A stretch of DNA of 7,711 nt from Candidatus Sumerlaeota bacterium (lineage in GTDB: Bacteria; CG03; SLGR01), in NCBI GenBank assembly GCA_007136585.1, contig SLGR01000019.1, positions 1 through 7,711 on the forward strand, given 5' to 3'. This document shows, piece after piece, positions 41 to 7,711 of this stretch. A model generated the notes under the pieces. The model worked only from the letters and a program-made list of their open reading frames with translations, did not search any database and was not told the DNA's origin. The number at the start of each line of letters is the position of its first letter. Position 1 is the first letter of the stretch. A program made the position numbers and the translations under genes.

Positions 41-3000
41 CTATTTAAGCGGACTTTTATTCAAGTTCCTTTTAACGGAGATAACCTTAAGGGTCCCCCG
101 GGGCTTCTCAATATCCTCAGGCATAACAGGCTTGTTTTTCTTTAATTCGGCCCCTATCACACCCTCTACAGCCTCCCTGAAAAGCCACCCGCCTGATCCC
201 GTATATCCGTTCCATATCATTCGTCCCGGGTCAAAGTTCGTCAGGATATCAGCCGGCTGTTTATTGGGCTGGCCTCCGTAAACCTCGATCTCCTCCGGGG
301 TAGTATGCGCAACCGGGGTTATCTTTCTCCAGAGCCTGTAGGAGGTCTCCCTGTACCGGGCGGCCTCTTCAGCGTTGCCGGATTTTTCGTGTTTCTCCGC
401 AAGTATACGCGCTGCCTTTATCATCCACTGCACCCCGTGGCAGTACATCCCGTTCTCCCTGACTCCTTCCGGGTAGACGCAGCTCCTTCCAAGGTAAGGT
501 TTACTGTCTTCGTTGAGAGCCGGCCACCCGAGAAGAACCTCGTTTCCCTTCTCAAGCACATCAATCGCGGTATTGAACATTATCTCCGAACGTTCGGGGT
601 TAACACCCGATATCACAGCCCAGGCGGCGGTAAGAGCATCTATCTCCCATATCCCGCTTCCTTTCACCCCTATCTCCGTTCCGTCATCATGAAAAGCCCG
701 CAGGTACCTGTCCTGTCTCCAACTCCTCTCAATAGCTTCCTTCAGCTGCTTTTGTTTATCAAGATAATAGCGTTTCCTATTTTCTCCTTCTTTCTCGCCT
801 ACTATTTCAGTCATCTCGTTAAGTATGTAGTAAAGGAAAAGGCCAAGCCAGACGCTCTCGCCCTTTCCCTGGCTTCCGATCTCATCAAGTCCGTCATTCC
901 AGTCTCCGGCTCCGATAAGCGGAAGACCGTTGACACCCGTCTTTTTATCAAAAACCAGGTCGATTGATCTCAGACAGTGCCTGTATATGGTATCCGAACG
1001 GGTCGTTCTTCCGTAGAGCCCTCCTATGCCGTGAGGGTTTTTCGGTAGCGGCTCAAACGGATCTTCCGAGAAGACGTACGATGTCATCTCGTCAAGTATG
1101 GTTCTGTCTCCTGTTGATTTGATGTACTCAACCGTACCCCAGACAAGCCAGAGCAGGTTGTCCGAAGCGTGACTCCGGCAGGCAAACGCCGTGCTCCCGT
1201 CCGGAAGGGTAAAGAACCAGTGAAAAACATCGCCCTCGGGAAACTGCTGTGAGGCGTGAAGGATGATCTGTTTCCGCGCCATCATCGGGTCCACCCACAT
1301 AATATTTATAGTATCCTGGAGCTGGTCCCTGAAACCGTAAGCGCCGCTTGACTGGTAGAACCCGCGGCGGGCCCAGACCCTGTCAACAAAATCCTGGTAT
1401 TTAAGCCAGTTCTGAAGCCGGTCAAACTCCTCCTGGTTTGTCTTAATTTCCACAGTGGACATAAGATCCCTCCACCAGTTCCTTGTAGTTTCAAGGGCTT
1501 CGTTTACGTTTTCAACGGTCCTGTACCTGCCTACCACCTCACGGGCGGTTTCCATTTCCCCGGCCTGCCCCATAATCACAGCCAGGGACTCCTCCCCGCC
1601 TGACGGAACGGTTACGGTCTTAAGAAGAGCCGCTACACTCCTGTCATCTCCGGTCTTCTCCGGGCAGGGGGACCCCTTCTCAGTCATATAGGGCCTTTCC
1701 GGGGCTCTTCCGGGTCCGAAAAAGACTCCTCTTTCAGTAACTACTGCTTCGGGGTTTCCGGTCATTGCCACAAAGGCCGGACCTTTTCTGAAGGTATTGG
1801 ATGGGTTCTCGTAATATACCGCCCCCGTATCCTCATCTTTTTTTATAGTAAGGGCCGAGGGAGAACCCGAACCGGGCTGACCCTGTTCGGGCATAAACCC
1901 CAGGACCATCTGGAAATAAGGAGAGACCCTGAGCCTCCTGGGCTGATCTGAGTTATTCTTTATCTTAAGCATATATATCCCACAGGGGTCTTCAGGCGGG
2001 ACAAAGACAGTAAGCTCCGTTTCCAGATCCCCTTTCTTCATCCTGAACTCGGCTGTCCCTTCCACGCTGAACTCAGCCTGGTTGGAAGCCTCGCGGTCAT
2101 TAAGGGGATGATGCGTGGGAGAGTACCACTTGCCGCTCTCAGTATCATATATGTAAAAGGCCTCACCGGGGATCTCCCTTGTGACGATATCCGAGCAGTC
2201 AGGTGTTATCCGGTTCTGCTGGGAGTTGTAGTTACTTGTTGTATGAAGCCCCCGGTTCGTCACCATAACAGCGTGTTCAAGCGCGTTACATAGCTGGTGA
2301 TCAAAAGGCCTGGGGGTATACGGAGACTTTACAAGCATATTGTCCCCGTTATTCCTGTACTCGCAGTATGGGAGCGGTGTGCCGGGGGGTATTTTTCCGT
2401 GGCCTATGAAAGGCCTTTCCCGTTTCACCGCTTCCGGCTCAGGTGAAGTTGTTCCGGCTGCGGGCGAGATAATACTGTTTATAGCATCCAGTGCCTCGTC
2501 ACGCCCGGCGGCGCATCCTATAACAAGGGTGAAGTTCATGACCGAACGCGCTTTTACCTGCGCGTCAAGAACCATAGACCCTATGGGATCAAAGGTGGGC
2601 GCGCCTGTACTGTCTGAAGGCCGTTTAAAATCAAGGGTTGAGAGCGCTTCCGGATCCCATACACTCCGGGCCCTTCCTATAAAATCAAGCCGGTAATCAA
2701 GGTACCCTTCGGGAGCAGAATCCAGAGCCATAAACCCCATAAGTTTTGTCTTCTTCTGCCAGGCCAGAACGGCGTTGGCATTACTGTTATATTCAACCTC
2801 GGGGAAAAGTTTTGAGTACTGGGGATGAAACCTGTCGTCGTTCGGCCCGTTAAGCACCCACTCAAGGTAGGGAATTATCTTGAGCGGTCGGTCGGAACCG
2901 GAAAGGTTCTCCACTTTCACATCCCACTTCTCGGCGTGAAGACCCTCTACGGGCAGGGTTATATCAACAGTTGTTTTTATGTCGTTTGATTTATTGACCA

Positions 3001-5584
3001 GCCTTACCCCCTTCCCTTTTTTCTCAACGGAAACTCTTTCAAAACTTCCTGCGGGATAATTTCCTGTCACGGGCCAGAACCCTTTCCCCGGACCTTCGGC
3101 AGCAGTGTCTTTGATAAATACTATCCTACCGCAGGGATCCATAAGATCGTAGCAGCGGCGGCTTATATCATACTCAAATATATCTGTCTGGGACTGGTCT
3201 CGGTTATAAACATCCTTACGGAGCGTGCTGTGAATACTTCCGTCGTCCCGCACGCTAAGCGTATACTTTCCGGTTCGGAGAGTGTAAGTCTTTTTTCTGC
3301 GGCGCCGGTTCTTAAGGACCCTTACAAAAGAGAACCCGCCTGTAGATATGAGAGCGGCAAAGATAGGCAGCACCGCCATCTGCCCTGTTGAAAGCGAGCC
3401 GAAATACTCTATCATCCTCCTGTAAAGGGGGGCGGTTCCCATAGCCTGGGAAGTTGTCCACAGATACTCCCAGTCTTCCCCGCGTGGAAGGTAAAAGGGT
3501 ATCAGGAGCGGCGCCCAGGTCACAAAACGCTTAACGGCCTCCGGGATGTATTTCTGCGCTGAGATCGGACCTATGAACCGGGCGATTTTCTCATCAACCC
3601 TGTCCAGCCCTATAAAACTCCAGTTAACCAGGGTTGCCACCCTGAGTCCCATATGATCCATCCAGATCAGGATACGGAAAAAATCGTATATAAGAATGTA
3701 AAGAAACACGTTCAGGCTCCAGGCCCTGAAATTCTCAGGAGACGAAGTTAAGCTCTGAAAGGTGGCAAAAAACGTTCTTATAAGACCATCCTGGTTATAC
3801 CATGTGGGGTCGGGCATCATCCGCAGAAAAGTAAATATAACAGGGGCCATCCAGAGTCCCCACCGCATAACCCGTACAAGTTGTTTTATAAGTTCAACGG
3901 CCCCCTGTCTGGAGAAGAAGTTGCGTATTATTGATTTATCTTTCTTAAAATAAGCAAGCATAAACACCTGGTTTACCGCAAAGAGCCAGGCTGCGACAGA
4001 CCAGTTAAGAACCCCTGCAAAGGCCTCCGTGTAAAGAAGTTTGACCCCCCCTGTATAAACACCAAGATCAATCATACCCCATTTGTTTACCAGCGGAAAA
4101 GTCACGTAACTTCTACCTTCGAACCCGGCGGTGGTATAATCCCGGAACTTCTCAATTACTACCGGCACCTGAGCCGTATCAAGATAAAAGGCCAAGGCGC
4201 TTCCCACAAAAACCCCCAGAATAGTATCAAAGAAATAAAGCTTCCAGGTCTGAATCTTTCCTTTTCCCTGGAAAGAATATATGACATCTCGGATAAGACT
4301 CACAGCGCCTGAAGAAAACGCTCCGACCGTAAGTCCGAATAAGACCCGGGATCCCATATCAAGCTGAAAGATTCCTATATCTATACCATAGGAAAAACCA
4401 AGGCCGAAGACCGCCCCCCGTGCATAAAGGACCCAGTTTCTGTAGGAATATCGAAGCCTCAGGAAAAAAGGTTTGCTTCCGTCAAAAGTCTCTATAACCG
4501 TTTTCATAAACGGAAATACCAGGGCTCCCGCCGCCGTTCCGACTATAATAGGCAGGGAGGCCATCAGGGTCTGCGCGATATTGCTGGCCAGAAAAAATCT
4601 TAAACCATAGAGCACCGCCATAAATATACCGCTAAAAGCCATTCCTTTTTTAAGCCCCGTTGCGATATTACCAGATATATTTTCCTGAGAGGGCGGGGTT
4701 CCCTGGACACCGTCAAGAAGCATACCGGTAAGTAAATAAGTCATTCCCCACAGGGGAGCATGGGCCATCATGGTCAGAAAAACAGCTGTCAGCGCCTGCC
4801 CTGAAAGAGGAAGAGTCGCTACCGCGGGAGTAGACCCGGCATCTGCTATGTAAGGCGAAAGAACCACAGCAAGGGATATCAGAGCAAGATCCAGATGAGC
4901 CTTTCCAAACTTGAGGAAATCACCTTTTGCGGCATAGCGTATAAGTCCCGTTACGATCTCGCTGAATAAAAACACAACCAGAAACCGGCCGGCCACCTCC
5001 GTAAAGATCTCGTACCGGGCAAGCACCCCTGCACTCAGAGCTCCGCCTGCAAGGCGCAGTATCCCGGGGTTTCCCAGGAGCAGGAGCCACCCGAAAAGAA
5101 AAGGGGTTCCGGCCACCATTACAGCCGTGACGGGTTTTACGTGTCTGCCGCGCGCGGATACCAGTCCGGCGTTAGCGATGGAATATATAAGGAAAGCAAC
5201 AGATGCCGTAAGATGATTTATTACAAAGATCTGAGCCAGCGAACCGGGAACCTGAAGAAGCGCCTGGCTTCCGGAAGCTGAAGCCAGTATGCCGGCAACA
5301 GCAAAATTCTGAAAAACCTCCCGCGGGGTAAGACCTGATCCTGTAATGCCGCGTTTAAGAATAAGGGGGGCCGCAACCCCGGCAAGAGCGATAGCTATAA
5401 CCGCCGCGCCGGCTCCTTCCGCCCCAAGCGCCCTCTGGACAGGACCCAGAATATATATCCCTACCGCTGCAGCCAGGGTAATGACAGTAAATACCCCGTA
5501 TAAAATATCCCGCCTTATTCCGGCTAACGCGCCGCCTCCGGAGTATCTGCCGTTTTCAATTCCCGTATCTATGTAGTTATTCAT
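41..5584 (-). CDS. Polytopic membrane protein with C-terminal GH94-type glycoside phosphorylase module (cyclic beta-1,2-glucan synthase C-terminus-like)
   Basis: This is a complete 1847-residue gene: ATG start, TAG stop, no frameshift. Residues 24-757 carry about 18 hydrophobic helices (for example 26-47, 57-76, 116-142, 151-171, 313-332, 413-432, 449-469, 623-643, 736-755). The basic run RRRRKK at 760-765 follows. Residues ~766-1040 form a first Glyco_transf_36-like sandwich (HPQYSKLFPEVEY, 920-932). A Pro-rich linker leads to a second sandwich at ~1070-1345 (NRITPDCSD near 1124; PGEAFYIYD near 1139). The catalytic domain spans ~1375-1820. Visible motifs are SGAYGFRDQLQD (1413-1424), GDVFHW (1451-1456), R1470 before SDNLLWL, GDWNDG (1560-1565; D1564 is the likely general acid), H1716 and YTGSGGW (1794-1800). 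GH94 enzymes reversibly phosphorolyse beta-glucosidic oligosaccharides. The two-sandwich layout best matches beta-1,2-glucan enzymes, but the substrate is unproven. Helix parity and basic loops put the catalytic part in the cytoplasm. No GT84 or GH189 region is present. The ATG lies 13 bases after the upstream stop and has no well-spaced ribosome binding site, so coupling is likely. The GH94 assignment is firm, the substrate uncertain and the membrane domain unrecognised. Confidence 0.95.
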   Translation of the reverse strand: MNNYIDTGIENGRYSGGGALAGIRRDILYGVFTVITLAAAVGIYILGPVQRALGAEGAGAAVIAIALAGVAAPLILKRGITGSGLTPREVFQNFAVAGILASASGSQALLQVPGSLAQIFVINHLTASVAFLIYSIANAGLVSARGRHVKPVTAVMVAGTPFLFGWLLLLGNPGILRLAGGALSAGVLARYEIFTEVAGRFLVVFLFSEIVTGLIRYAAKGDFLKFGKAHLDLALISLAVVLSPYIADAGSTPAVATLPLSGQALTAVFLTMMAHAPLWGMTYLLTGMLLDGVQGTPPSQENISGNIATGLKKGMAFSGIFMAVLYGLRFFLASNIAQTLMASLPIIVGTAAGALVFPFMKTVIETFDGSKPFFLRLRYSYRNWVLYARGAVFGLGFSYGIDIGIFQLDMGSRVLFGLTVGAFSSGAVSLIRDVIYSFQGKGKIQTWKLYFFDTILGVFVGSALAFYLDTAQVPVVIEKFRDYTTAGFEGRSYVTFPLVNKWGMIDLGVYTGGVKLLYTEAFAGVLNWSVAAWLFAVNQVFMLAYFKKDKSIIRNFFSRQGAVELIKQLVRVMRWGLWMAPVIFTFLRMMPDPTWYNQDGLIRTFFATFQSLTSSPENFRAWSLNVFLYILIYDFFRILIWMDHMGLRVATLVNWSFIGLDRVDEKIARFIGPISAQKYIPEAVKRFVTWAPLLIPFYLPRGEDWEYLWTTSQAMGTAPLYRRMIEYFGSLSTGQMAVLPIFAALISTGGFSFVRVLKNRRRRKKTYTLRTGKYTLSVRDDGSIHSTLRKDVYNRDQSQTDIFEYDISRRCYDLMDPCGRIVFIKDTAAEGPGKGFWPVTGNYPAGSFERVSVEKKGKGVRLVNKSNDIKTTVDITLPVEGLHAEKWDVKVENLSGSDRPLKIIPYLEWVLNGPNDDRFHPQYSKLFPEVEYNSNANAVLAWQKKTKLMGFMALDSAPEGYLDYRLDFIGRARSVWDPEALSTLDFKRPSDSTGAPTFDPIGSMVLDAQVKARSVMNFTLVIGCAAGRDEALDAINSIISPAAGTTSPEPEAVKRERPFIGHGKIPPGTPLPYCEYRNNGDNMLVKSPYTPRPFDHQLCNALEHAVMVTNRGLHTTSNYNSQQNRITPDCSDIVTREIPGEAFYIYDTESGKWYSPTHHPLNDREASNQAEFSVEGTAEFRMKKGDLETELTVFVPPEDPCGIYMLKIKNNSDQPRRLRVSPYFQMVLGFMPEQGQPGSGSPSALTIKKDEDTGAVYYENPSNTFRKGPAFVAMTGNPEAVVTERGVFFGPGRAPERPYMTEKGSPCPEKTGDDRSVAALLKTVTVPSGGEESLAVIMGQAGEMETAREVVGRYRTVENVNEALETTRNWWRDLMSTVEIKTNQEEFDRLQNWLKYQDFVDRVWARRGFYQSSGAYGFRDQLQDTINIMWVDPMMARKQIILHASQQFPEGDVFHWFFTLPDGSTAFACRSHASDNLLWLVWGTVEYIKSTGDRTILDEMTSYVFSEDPFEPLPKNPHGIGGLYGRTTRSDTIYRHCLRSIDLVFDKKTGVNGLPLIGAGDWNDGLDEIGSQGKGESVWLGLFLYYILNEMTEIVGEKEGENRKRYYLDKQKQLKEAIERSWRQDRYLRAFHDDGTEIGVKGSGIWEIDALTAAWAVISGVNPERSEIMFNTAIDVLEKGNEVLLGWPALNEDSKPYLGRSCVYPEGVRENGMYCHGVQWMIKAARILAEKHEKSGNAEEAARYRETSYRLWRKITPVAHTTPEEIEVYGGQPNKQPADILTNFDPGRMIWNGYTGSGGWLFREAVEGVIGAELKKNKPVMPEDIEKPRGTLKVISVKRNLNKSPLK

Positions 5585-5597
5585 TTTTCTGTACCGG

Positions 5598-7711
5598 TTA
5601 TACTCTTCCTTCCTTAGTATCCCGGCCGAATACCTTGTAATATCCGGCCGCCGCCAACGACAATATAAGACCCAGTCCCAGAACCATAATTATCTTACCG
5701 TGAATCTTTTCAAGAAAGCGCATTTTTCCGAACTCAAGGTCAAGAAGTATTCTGCCCTCCACTGCCTCAGGGGGGGCCGGGGCCTCCTCCACAGGGCTTG
5801 CGAACTGGCTGACCCCGAAAGCAATGGTCGCCTGGGGTTTTACCACAAAAACTATCTCATCCATATCTCCTATCTTGCTCCATTGTATAGGCTCCTTTAA
5901 CATGGACCACCCAACGGAGGTTTCCAGGGGAATACCCTGAACTCCTCCGGGACCCTTAAACTCGGCCTTAAGGCTTATACTCTCAGCAAGTTCAGGCTCG
6001 GGTATTTTTACCGCTACGTACGCGGCGTCAAAGTTTTCAGGTCTAACCTCTCCGGGGTACTGGTTTGTCCAGACCCCCGCGGCGGAGTCAGGGGTCACCC
6101 TGAAATCCAGCTGCAGGACCTCTCTTGCTGCATGCGGGTCATAAACCCGCTCAATCAGCCCTTCGGCATCGCCAAGCTTAAAAATACCCATACCCTCGGC
6201 GTCAAGCAGTGTTATAAGCCCGGGTTCAACGATAAAGGGATCTTCAGGAAGTTCGGTTTCGGTAAACCTGAAATCAAAGAGCAGGGTTCCTTTAATATCT
6301 TCGTCGGCAGCCGGTTGCGCTACCATAACAACCTCATCAATACTTTCTATAAGCTCCCATTCTATAGGGGCGGCAAATGTATTTAATCCGTCTCGCAGCT
6401 CCAGGGGGACGGTCTGCACATCGCCGGCGGGCCCTTTAATTTCAAGGTTGAGTCTTATATCGCGCGACTGTCCGGGTTCAGGAAGAATTATATTCCCTTC
6501 TACCGTTTTTACGGTTTCGGCATCCAGCCATTTTGGGTACTGGTTTGTCCAGACCCCCACAACGGTCCCTTCCGGTGCCGAATACTCAAAAGAAAGAAGA
6601 TCTGACTCAGTCTCATGGCTGTATACCCGCGAGACACTCCCCTCGGAATCTCCTATATTGAAAACCCCCATACCGCCCGCGCTGAAAATATCCGGCTTCC
6701 TTTCGGGAAGATCCTTTTCCTCCGGTCTTTCAATATCCAGGAACTTAAGATCGAAATACACGCTCCCCGAAACTTCCTCTCCGGGGACTGGTTCAACAAC
6801 AAAGACCGCTTCGTCCAGCTGCGCTATATGCTCCCAGTCTATGAACTCCTTAAATGCGTTGGCCCCCTCTTCAACCCTGAGCGGCACTCTCTGAGTCTCC
6901 CCGGCTGGGCCTTTGAGCTCCAGCATGATGTTTAAAAGATCCGGGTTTATTTCACCCGGAATCCCTACAGCGGCCTTAACAGCGGTTACTGTTTCAGGGG
7001 AAAGCCCCCCAGGATATTCGTTCGTCCATATGCCGGTGACGGTTCCCTCCGGAAGCTGATATTCAAACCTGAGGGCCTCTCTTTCAAGAACCCGGCTCCG
7101 CGCGCGGCGGACGCTCCCTTCGGAGTCTCCTATATTAAATACGCCCATACCCCCGGCGGAGAATATATCAAACTCATCCTCTGCGGCTTCTCTCTCCTCC
7201 GGCTCGTCTGTCTCAAGGAATTCCAGGTCAAAGTAGAGGATACCCCTGGCCGTCTCATCATATGAAGGTTCAGCCACAAGCACCGTCTCTTCTACACTTT
7301 CCAGGGCTTCCCAGTCTATAAGATTATAAAAAACGCTCCACCCCTCCCCAGGATAGAGCGGGATAACCTGCATCATCTCATCGGGGCCTTTAAGCTCCAG
7401 TTTCAACCGGATAGATTCAAGCTGTTCATCCTCTTCGGACCTTAACCTCACTCTTACGGTATTTGCGTACTCCGGGGTTAGTTCTTCCGGGTATCCCCTG
7501 GTCCATACACCCGCAGCCGAACCCTCCGGGACCTCATACTCAAATCGTATAACGTATTTATCGTACTCTTCGCTCCGGGCAAATCTTGAGCTGCCCTCTG
7601 CCTCGCCTATTGTAAAGACACCGGTCTCCTCCGCATCAATAGGGCCGAATGAGAGCCCGTGGGAGAGGCCGGCGGATACCAGAAGCCCTCCTGCCAAAAC
7701 CAGGGTGCTCC
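5598..7711 (-). CDS. Four-repeat extracytoplasmic protein with C-terminal membrane anchor, putative carbohydrate-binding (5' end outside window)
   Basis: The frame is open to the window edge and ends with TAA. A TTG at 7697 could be taken as a start, giving 699 residues. However, the frame continues upstream as S-T-L-V, so the hydrophobic stretch STLVLAGGLLVSAGL reads as the core of a signal peptide and the true start should lie past 7711. Residue numbers here count from that TTG. Four repeats follow (about 26-163, 184-321, 343-480 and 502-657), joined by acidic, Pro-containing linkers. Each has G-[VI]-F-x-[IL]-G-[ED]-[AS]-E-G, then WT-x-x-YP, KGP, a second tryptophan, and a closing strand resembling YFDLEFL. 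A membrane helix at ~668-688 and a short tail (KVFGRDTKEGRV) end the protein, giving type I topology. The strongly acidic chain and the beta-rich pattern ending in a YFDLEF strand resemble galactose-binding-like or CBM sandwiches. Carbohydrate binding is inferred, supported mainly by the adjacent GH94 gene; no named family was recognised. A structural or adhesion role is possible. Confidence 0.9.
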   Translation of the reverse strand, partial: STLVLAGGLLVSAGLSHGLSFGPIDAEETGVFTIGEAEGSSRFARSEEYDKYVIRFEYEVPEGSAAGVWTRGYPEELTPEYANTVRVRLRSEEDEQLESIRLKLELKGPDEMMQVIPLYPGEGWSVFYNLIDWEALESVEETVLVAEPSYDETARGILYFDLEFLETDEPEEREAAEDEFDIFSAGGMGVFNIGDSEGSVRRARSRVLEREALRFEYQLPEGTVTGIWTNEYPGGLSPETVTAVKAAVGIPGEINPDLLNIMLELKGPAGETQRVPLRVEEGANAFKEFIDWEHIAQLDEAVFVVEPVPGEEVSGSVYFDLKFLDIERPEEKDLPERKPDIFSAGGMGVFNIGDSEGSVSRVYSHETESDLLSFEYSAPEGTVVGVWTNQYPKWLDAETVKTVEGNIILPEPGQSRDIRLNLEIKGPAGDVQTVPLELRDGLNTFAAPIEWELIESIDEVVMVAQPAADEDIKGTLLFDFRFTETELPEDPFIVEPGLITLLDAEGMGIFKLGDAEGLIERVYDPHAAREVLQLDFRVTPDSAAGVWTNQYPGEVRPENFDAAYVAVKIPEPELAESISLKAEFKGPGGVQGIPLETSVGWSMLKEPIQWSKIGDMDEIVFVVKPQATIAFGVSQFASPVEEAPAPPEAVEGRILLDLEFGKMRFLEKIHGKIIMVLGLGLILSLAAAGYYKVFGRDTKEGRV
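5603..5615 (-). promoter_or_regulatory. Purine-rich Shine-Dalgarno-like tract inside the end of the upstream gene, unusually far from the next ATG
   Basis: On the minus strand AAGGAAGGAAGAG encodes the last residues of the repeat protein (K-E-G-R) just before its TAA. It is the only strong anti-16S-like tract near the GH94 gene start, but 18 bases separate it from the ATG at 5584, more than the usual 5-10. The sequence directly before the ATG (TACAGAAAA) is only weakly purine-rich. No in-frame ATG, GTG or TTG is seen closer to the tract, so the ATG is kept as start, with translation probably coupled to termination of the upstream gene. Confidence 0.35.
5727..7622 (-). repeat. Tandem array of four ~477-bp coding repeats (about 159 residues each)
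   Basis: Unit boundaries in transcription order are about 7622-7209, 7148-6735, 6671-6258 and 6194-5727. The first conserved tryptophan falls at residues 65, 224, 383 and 543 (spacing 159, 159, 160). The second falls at 129, 288, 447 and 606 (spacing 159 each time). Units 2 and 3 are most alike, sharing an identical stretch around FSAGGMGVFNIGDSEGS. DNA identity also persists: the 19 bases at 6061 (tggtttgtccagacccccg) recur at 6541 with only the last base changed. Unit 4 has drifted most and carries an extra Pro/Ala/Glu-rich segment of about 25 residues before its last strand. The array looks like successive duplication of one beta-sandwich domain. Confidence 0.92.
7650..7711 (-). other. Probable signal peptide hydrophobic core of the repeat protein (cut by window edge)
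   Basis: Reading from the edge, the frame encodes S-T-L-V-L-A-G-G-L-L-V-S-A-G-L-S-H-G-L-S and then turns polar. This is the size and composition of a signal peptide h-region with a small-residue cleavage region (around SHG or GLS). The basic n-region and initiator codon would lie outside the window. An extracytoplasmic location for the repeats fits this together with the single C-terminal membrane helix. Confidence 0.6.

Follow-up and report, generated by a model that had tools for sequence, protein, structure and literature searches.

Here we describe a pair of genes that occupies a window of 7,711 bases, the whole stretch of DNA analysed, which is the entire contig C169 of a 1.88 Mb genome that is 88% complete. 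Both genes and all of their features given below lie on the reverse strand. The first (41-5584) encodes a protein of 1847 aa, defined by its open reading frame and domain matches, in which a membrane domain of ~18 helices (residues 1-757) is followed by a complete GH94 module containing the sole GH94 catalytic domain detected in this genome. The second (5598-7709) stops 13 bases short of the fusion gene's ATG and encodes 703 aa of a secreted repeat protein with a C-terminal membrane helix, the N terminus of which is lost at the contig end. Pfam searches with the whole 1847-aa frame, even at E≤1, returned only GH94 parts, namely two GH94_b-supersand stretches and one catalytic domain. We hold this anatomy, and its conservation among relatives, to be very likely correct; the degrees of confidence that we attach to anatomy, activity, linkage and uptake are judgements, none of which was computed.

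The GH94 module was described in the initial annotation as intact and similar to that of the cyclic beta-1,2-glucan synthases (CGS), and on both points its sequence agrees. The first supersandwich (GP1-like, residues 766-1040, 2465-3289) is defined by a PF06165 match at 2516-3145 and by alignment to CGS 1599-1820, the second (GP2-like, residues 1085-1340, 1565-2332) by a further PF06165 match, and the catalytic domain (residues 1370-1811, 152-1477) by a match to PF17167 over its full length (1-420 of 420, E 3e-65). By alignment and numbering, D1420 (1325-1327) and D1564 (893-895) are the equivalents of D2393 and D2528 of Agrobacterium CGS; D2528 is the catalytic acid and both residues were substituted in a published inactive mutant (PMC10901819). 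Over the same region the module scored ~338 bits against CGS and 121 bits against cellobiose phosphorylase, whereas a soluble GH94 protein encoded at the locus of one relative (L027) scored 535 and 490 bits, respectively. The module also contains YCH at 1714 and YTGSGGW at 1794, which we take to be the phosphate-binding motifs of GH94. All five active-site motif patterns tested are kept in 22 relatives with an open reading frame that runs to the end. One of the five is missing from L032, and in the remaining relatives without them the sequence is truncated at a contig end or interrupted by a frame break. With phosphate, GH94 enzymes convert beta-glucosides to alpha-glucose 1-phosphate in a reversible reaction, of which breakdown is the direction favoured in the cytosol. 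The module is likely to be an active phosphorylase, and on grounds of homology its substrate linkage is probably, with somewhat less assurance, beta-1,2.

The membrane domain (residues 1-765, 3290-5584) has no match in Pfam at E≤1 or in NCBIfam, and the matches obtained by searching PDB sequences never extended into it. Hydropathy averaged over 32 relatives, together with the positive-inside pattern of alternating loops, fits a predicted topology of 18 membrane helices with the N and C termini both inside, where we arrive at the number 18 from 20 raw hydrophobic peaks by dropping one and merging two. The last helix is trailed by the basic residues RVLKNRRRRKK. As the initial annotation had pointed out, there is no loop between helices large enough for a cytosolic domain; the longest two breaks, at residues 468-523 (4016-4183, with two beta strands) and 664-735 (3380-3595, with abundant conserved aromatics), both fall on the predicted periplasmic side. 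These two segments and a third predicted periplasmic loop at residues 588-623 (3716-3823, TWYNQDG..R) are among the best-conserved stretches of the domain. A topology with both ends inside predicts that the repeats lie outside and the GH94 module in the cytosol.

The initial annotation had also found no glycosyltransferase in the N-terminal half of the fusion, and every comparison made here agrees. GT84 and GT2 were ruled out by Pfam, by motif search and by comparison with a true CGS from Omnitrophota, and the PDB sequence search and two AlphaFold models likewise gave no GT84, GT2 or GH189; QxxRW is absent from the membrane domain, the sole similar string being RVMRW at 571, within a helix. 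The CGS used for comparison is a 2,964-aa frame (L094 5198-14089, G066:C67) encoded in an Omnitrophota genome alongside the fusion, with GT84, PF10091 and two supersandwiches, and it is unlike the membrane domain of the fusion, its similarity to residues 1-765 not rising above noise by BLAST or profile. A GH189 domain (PF10091-type) in the same chain as GH94 was excluded by Pfam, PF10091 being encoded by separate genes. The word “replaced” for the synthase half is too strong: CGS carries a 166-residue Rossmann-like insertion (1847-2012) between its supersandwiches (PMC10901819), the Pfam supersandwich matches of the window are ~80 residues apart, a gap too short to hold it, and there is no sign that the fusion arose from a CGS through a domain swap.

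Two AlphaFold2 models of the membrane domain were compared with known structures, the first with pLDDT 76 and pTM 0.74 and the second, built from 45 sequences, with pLDDT 84 and pTM 0.81. Neither had a Foldseek match at E≤0.001, and the best VIA-align Z values of 7.3 (rmsd 3.5, 107 aligned) and 6.3 (rmsd 5.9, 142 aligned) both fall within the tool's stated background. Known folds were thus represented by weak, scattered helical matches only, and for these reasons we refer to a domain with no recognised fold, as opposed to a new fold. Pfam, Foldseek and VIA-align also recognised no known transporter in residues 1-765, in keeping with the initial annotation, and profile comparison detected no internal duplication. 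At the level of whole genomes, profiles of the domain found distant relatives (E 1e-8 to 1e-11; L083 2133-6544, L084, L085 and L086, from genomes G227, G223, G109 and G205) within giant Omnitrophota frames, the largest reaching 15,303 and 25,048 aa; a C39 peptidase domain precedes the relative in one case, and a helicase C-terminal domain accompanies it in another. Given these very long frames, the membrane domain may be a more widely used module.

A GH94 module whose closest counterpart belongs to a synthase invites the reading that the whole is a biosynthetic machine, in which the membrane domain is an unrecognised glycosyltransferase or exporter and GH94, in parallel to CGS, sets chain length or builds the chain from glucose 1-phosphate. 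The conserved charged residues D599, R603 and D643, on the predicted outer side, could then be catalytic. We consider this reading unlikely, since the domain has no glycosyltransferase motif, family match or fold match and the gene content of the informative operons, with secreted glucanases, importers and a ROK protein, is what a catabolic role would predict.

The gene at 5598-7709, which the initial annotation omitted, is the other part of the fusion's system. Profile searches delineate four CBM-like repeats in its product, from the N-terminal end 7206-7649, 6729-7172, 6252-6692 and 5718-6215, and a reading of the sequence places the membrane helix at 5637-5693, followed by a basic tail. Most relatives have this part fused to the front of the membrane-GH94 part in one protein of ~2,050-2,500 aa, the additional N-terminal part opening with a stretch that resembles a signal peptide and continuing with one to three ~150-residue repeats and a single membrane helix. 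The split version, with the partner as a separate upstream gene, is found in the window and its order-mates, and L027 is split at the same place. At L014 (9323-15419) fission or a frameshift has divided the fusion itself into two neighbouring frames, of 1,222 and 808 aa. CBM11, CBM30 and CIA30 were each weakly matched by 3 of 36 repeat members (best 4.7e-7), repeat 4 of the window matched none of the three, and a PDB profile search returned no match for the repeat fold. Segments related to the repeats are also present in neighbouring PF10091 proteins.

The fusion recurs in ~40 genomes or loci from Omnitrophota, Auribacterota and the window's own order. Searches with the membrane domain gave relatives in 3 of the 16 genomes examined from the window's phylum, in 39 of 285 from the phylum to which an Omnitrophota relative belongs (four being weak partial matches), in 4 of 44 from that of an Auribacterota relative (one being a short match at a contig end) and in 1 of 294 from the phylum of a relative labelled Planctomycetota, namely that relative alone; they also gave relatives on 30 named contigs, almost all of them Omnitrophota. 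A broad sample of 386 genomes gave just two matches outside the window's phylum, and as their contig coordinates coincide exactly with those of matches in the Omnitrophota and Auribacterota phyla, both are probably genomes already counted there. Relatives in Omnitrophota share ~50% identity with the membrane domain of the window, those in its own order 66-70%, and the tree sets the window and its two order-mates apart on a fully supported branch. In one order-mate (L046 775-1080, G004:C130) an in-frame TAG interrupts the fusion gene at its second membrane helix; the copy may be broken, the sequence in error or the codon recoded. The same fusion at ~40 loci, with a membrane part ~50% identical, is far from chance, and the architecture is conserved. 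GH94 joined to a membrane domain without a recognised fold is an architecture that we found undescribed: no account of it exists in the literature searched, which included papers on Omnitrophota and the PVC superphylum and whose scope left out preprints and most subscription papers.

Among 99 proteins encoded next to the fusion, PF10091, to which the GH144-type enzymes belong, is the commonest family (10), with ABC permeases next (7), and PF10091 was found in 18 of 18 tested genomes that carry the fusion. In the two nearest relatives with the gene it lies directly downstream (L044 12831-15305 and L046 6399-8870), and the first of these proteins matches the endo-beta-1,2-glucanase 5gzh at E 1e-42; a second PF10091 protein nearby (L045 2046-3842) does so at E 1.5e-138. 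Four Omnitrophota loci (L006, L014, L022 and L027) have the fusion among PF10091 genes, with ABC permeases close by in L006, L022 and L027 and none in L014 as far as seen, and L027 additionally encodes a solute-binding protein and the soluble GH94 protein. A ROK protein is present in some Omnitrophota fusion operons. At many other loci, for example L008, L010, L012, L018, L026 and L029, no glucanase is among the neighbours seen. The window's own genome has its orthologous PF10091 gene on contig C181 (L047 670-3174), preceded by a CBM-like gene and not by the fusion. There the CBM-like gene leads directly to PF10091 (L047 2-3174), and in the order-mate G001 (L044 3653-15305) the repeat-protein and fusion genes stand in between; as these two genes are all that C169 carries, the layout could stem from relocation or from a break in the assembly. 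Proteins of PF10091 loci in the window's order bear type IX secretion-like C-terminal domains (CHU_C, Por_Secre_tail; L044 15306-17276, L048 8308-11298).

The separate glycosyltransferase that the initial annotation suggested as a partner did not emerge from these neighbourhoods. No glycosyltransferase family recurs within the 25 commonest of the 146 families among the 99 neighbours, and the window's own genome has no match to the GT84 region of the Omnitrophota CGS. The earlier interpretation thus stands for the GH94 part and for the N-terminal half in which no glycosyltransferase was recognised, and is not supported for the partner or for replacement. Histidine-kinase and response-regulator genes near the fusion at some loci are what would be expected of a transmembrane sensor, in which the repeats sense glucan outside and GH94 serves as a ligand reader or slow catalytic output, but Pfam finds no signalling domain in the fusion protein, and the retention of the active-site motifs in every relative reaching far enough, apart from the one motif in L032, makes such a sensor very improbable.

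We tentatively suggest, at somewhat less than an even chance, that the two genes form one inner-membrane system, a membrane-embedded beta-(1,2-)glucan phosphorylase that possibly couples uptake to phosphorolysis. In the periplasm, the secreted CBM-like repeats would bind a beta-glucan whose linkage is most likely beta-1,2, the ~18-helix domain would anchor the system and present or pass the glucan, and the cytosolic GH94 module would act in the catabolic direction, phosphorolysing the glucan to alpha-glucose 1-phosphate. Phosphate is located in the cytosol. With repeats outside, a large conserved membrane domain and secreted glucanases nearby, the simplest account is that a beta-glucan phosphorylase receives its substrate at or through the membrane. 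Counting against it are the many loci without a glucanase neighbour and the position of PF10091 on another contig in the window's own genome.

Because no transporter fold was recognised, it is topology by itself that suggests transport, and the ABC sugar importer at some loci makes a second uptake route less necessary and so weakens the passage step (“vectorial phosphorolysis”). Coupled uptake through the membrane domain is accordingly doubtful in our judgement, and we would give similarly little credence to its boldest form, a new mechanism of group translocation in which a membrane conduit of new fold draws in periplasmic beta-glucan and GH94 phosphorolyses the emerging chain. The membrane domain might instead be an anchor or scaffold only, with the tethered GH94 trimming glucan that arrives otherwise, for example by the ABC importer, and the repeats acting independently outside. 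ABC permeases and a solute-binding protein in some operons accord with this, as does the scaffolding role that the GH94 half also has in CGS (PMC10901819), yet 18 helices ~50% identical, with many invariant polar and aromatic residues within and around the predicted periplasmic loops, go far beyond the needs of an anchor, and we find this explanation rather improbable as well.

Glycoside phosphorylases are normally soluble, or the trimming part of a synthase. If the fusion does move sugar, phosphorolysis would be counted among the processes known to power uptake, a good match for anaerobes whose life is close to the energy limit; were group translocation true, uptake would be driven by phosphorolysis and glucose 1-phosphate gained without ATP cost. 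For Omnitrophota, which have not been isolated (PMC10066038), the system offers a concrete and testable carbohydrate function, and its membrane domain without recognised fold is a structural target.

Comparison with CGS (ChvB/NdvB/Cgs; GT84-GH189-GH94; PDB 8rf0/8rf9) is the most direct, since this is the best PDB match of the fusion (E 1e-108), shares its catalytic aspartates and is also a membrane protein with a C-terminal cytosolic GH94. In contrast to the fusion, CGS has GT84 and GH189, a membrane domain of six helices as opposed to ~18 and the insertion between supersandwiches, and has no extracytoplasmic repeat part. The PEP-dependent phosphotransferase system, in which uptake is joined to chemical modification at the membrane, is a conceptual parallel only, as we know of no sequence relation between the two; in the fusion the donor would be inorganic phosphate, the reaction phosphorolysis, and transport is itself part of the proposal. 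The 1,2-beta-oligoglucan phosphorylases (SOGPs; Lin1839, LpSOGP 5h3z) are, to our knowledge, soluble enzymes without a membrane domain, and 5h3z matches the fusion very weakly in sequence (E 0.014). Both nonetheless have a three-part GH94 without the Rossmann-like insertion (for SOGP, PMC10901819), and a catabolic role beside an ABC importer has been proposed for SOGP (PMC3960220). GH144 and the related clan GH-S beta-1,2-glucanases (PF10091), encoded near the fusion in several relatives, are separate and mostly secreted enzymes outside the fusion polypeptide, and likely act on the same glucan.
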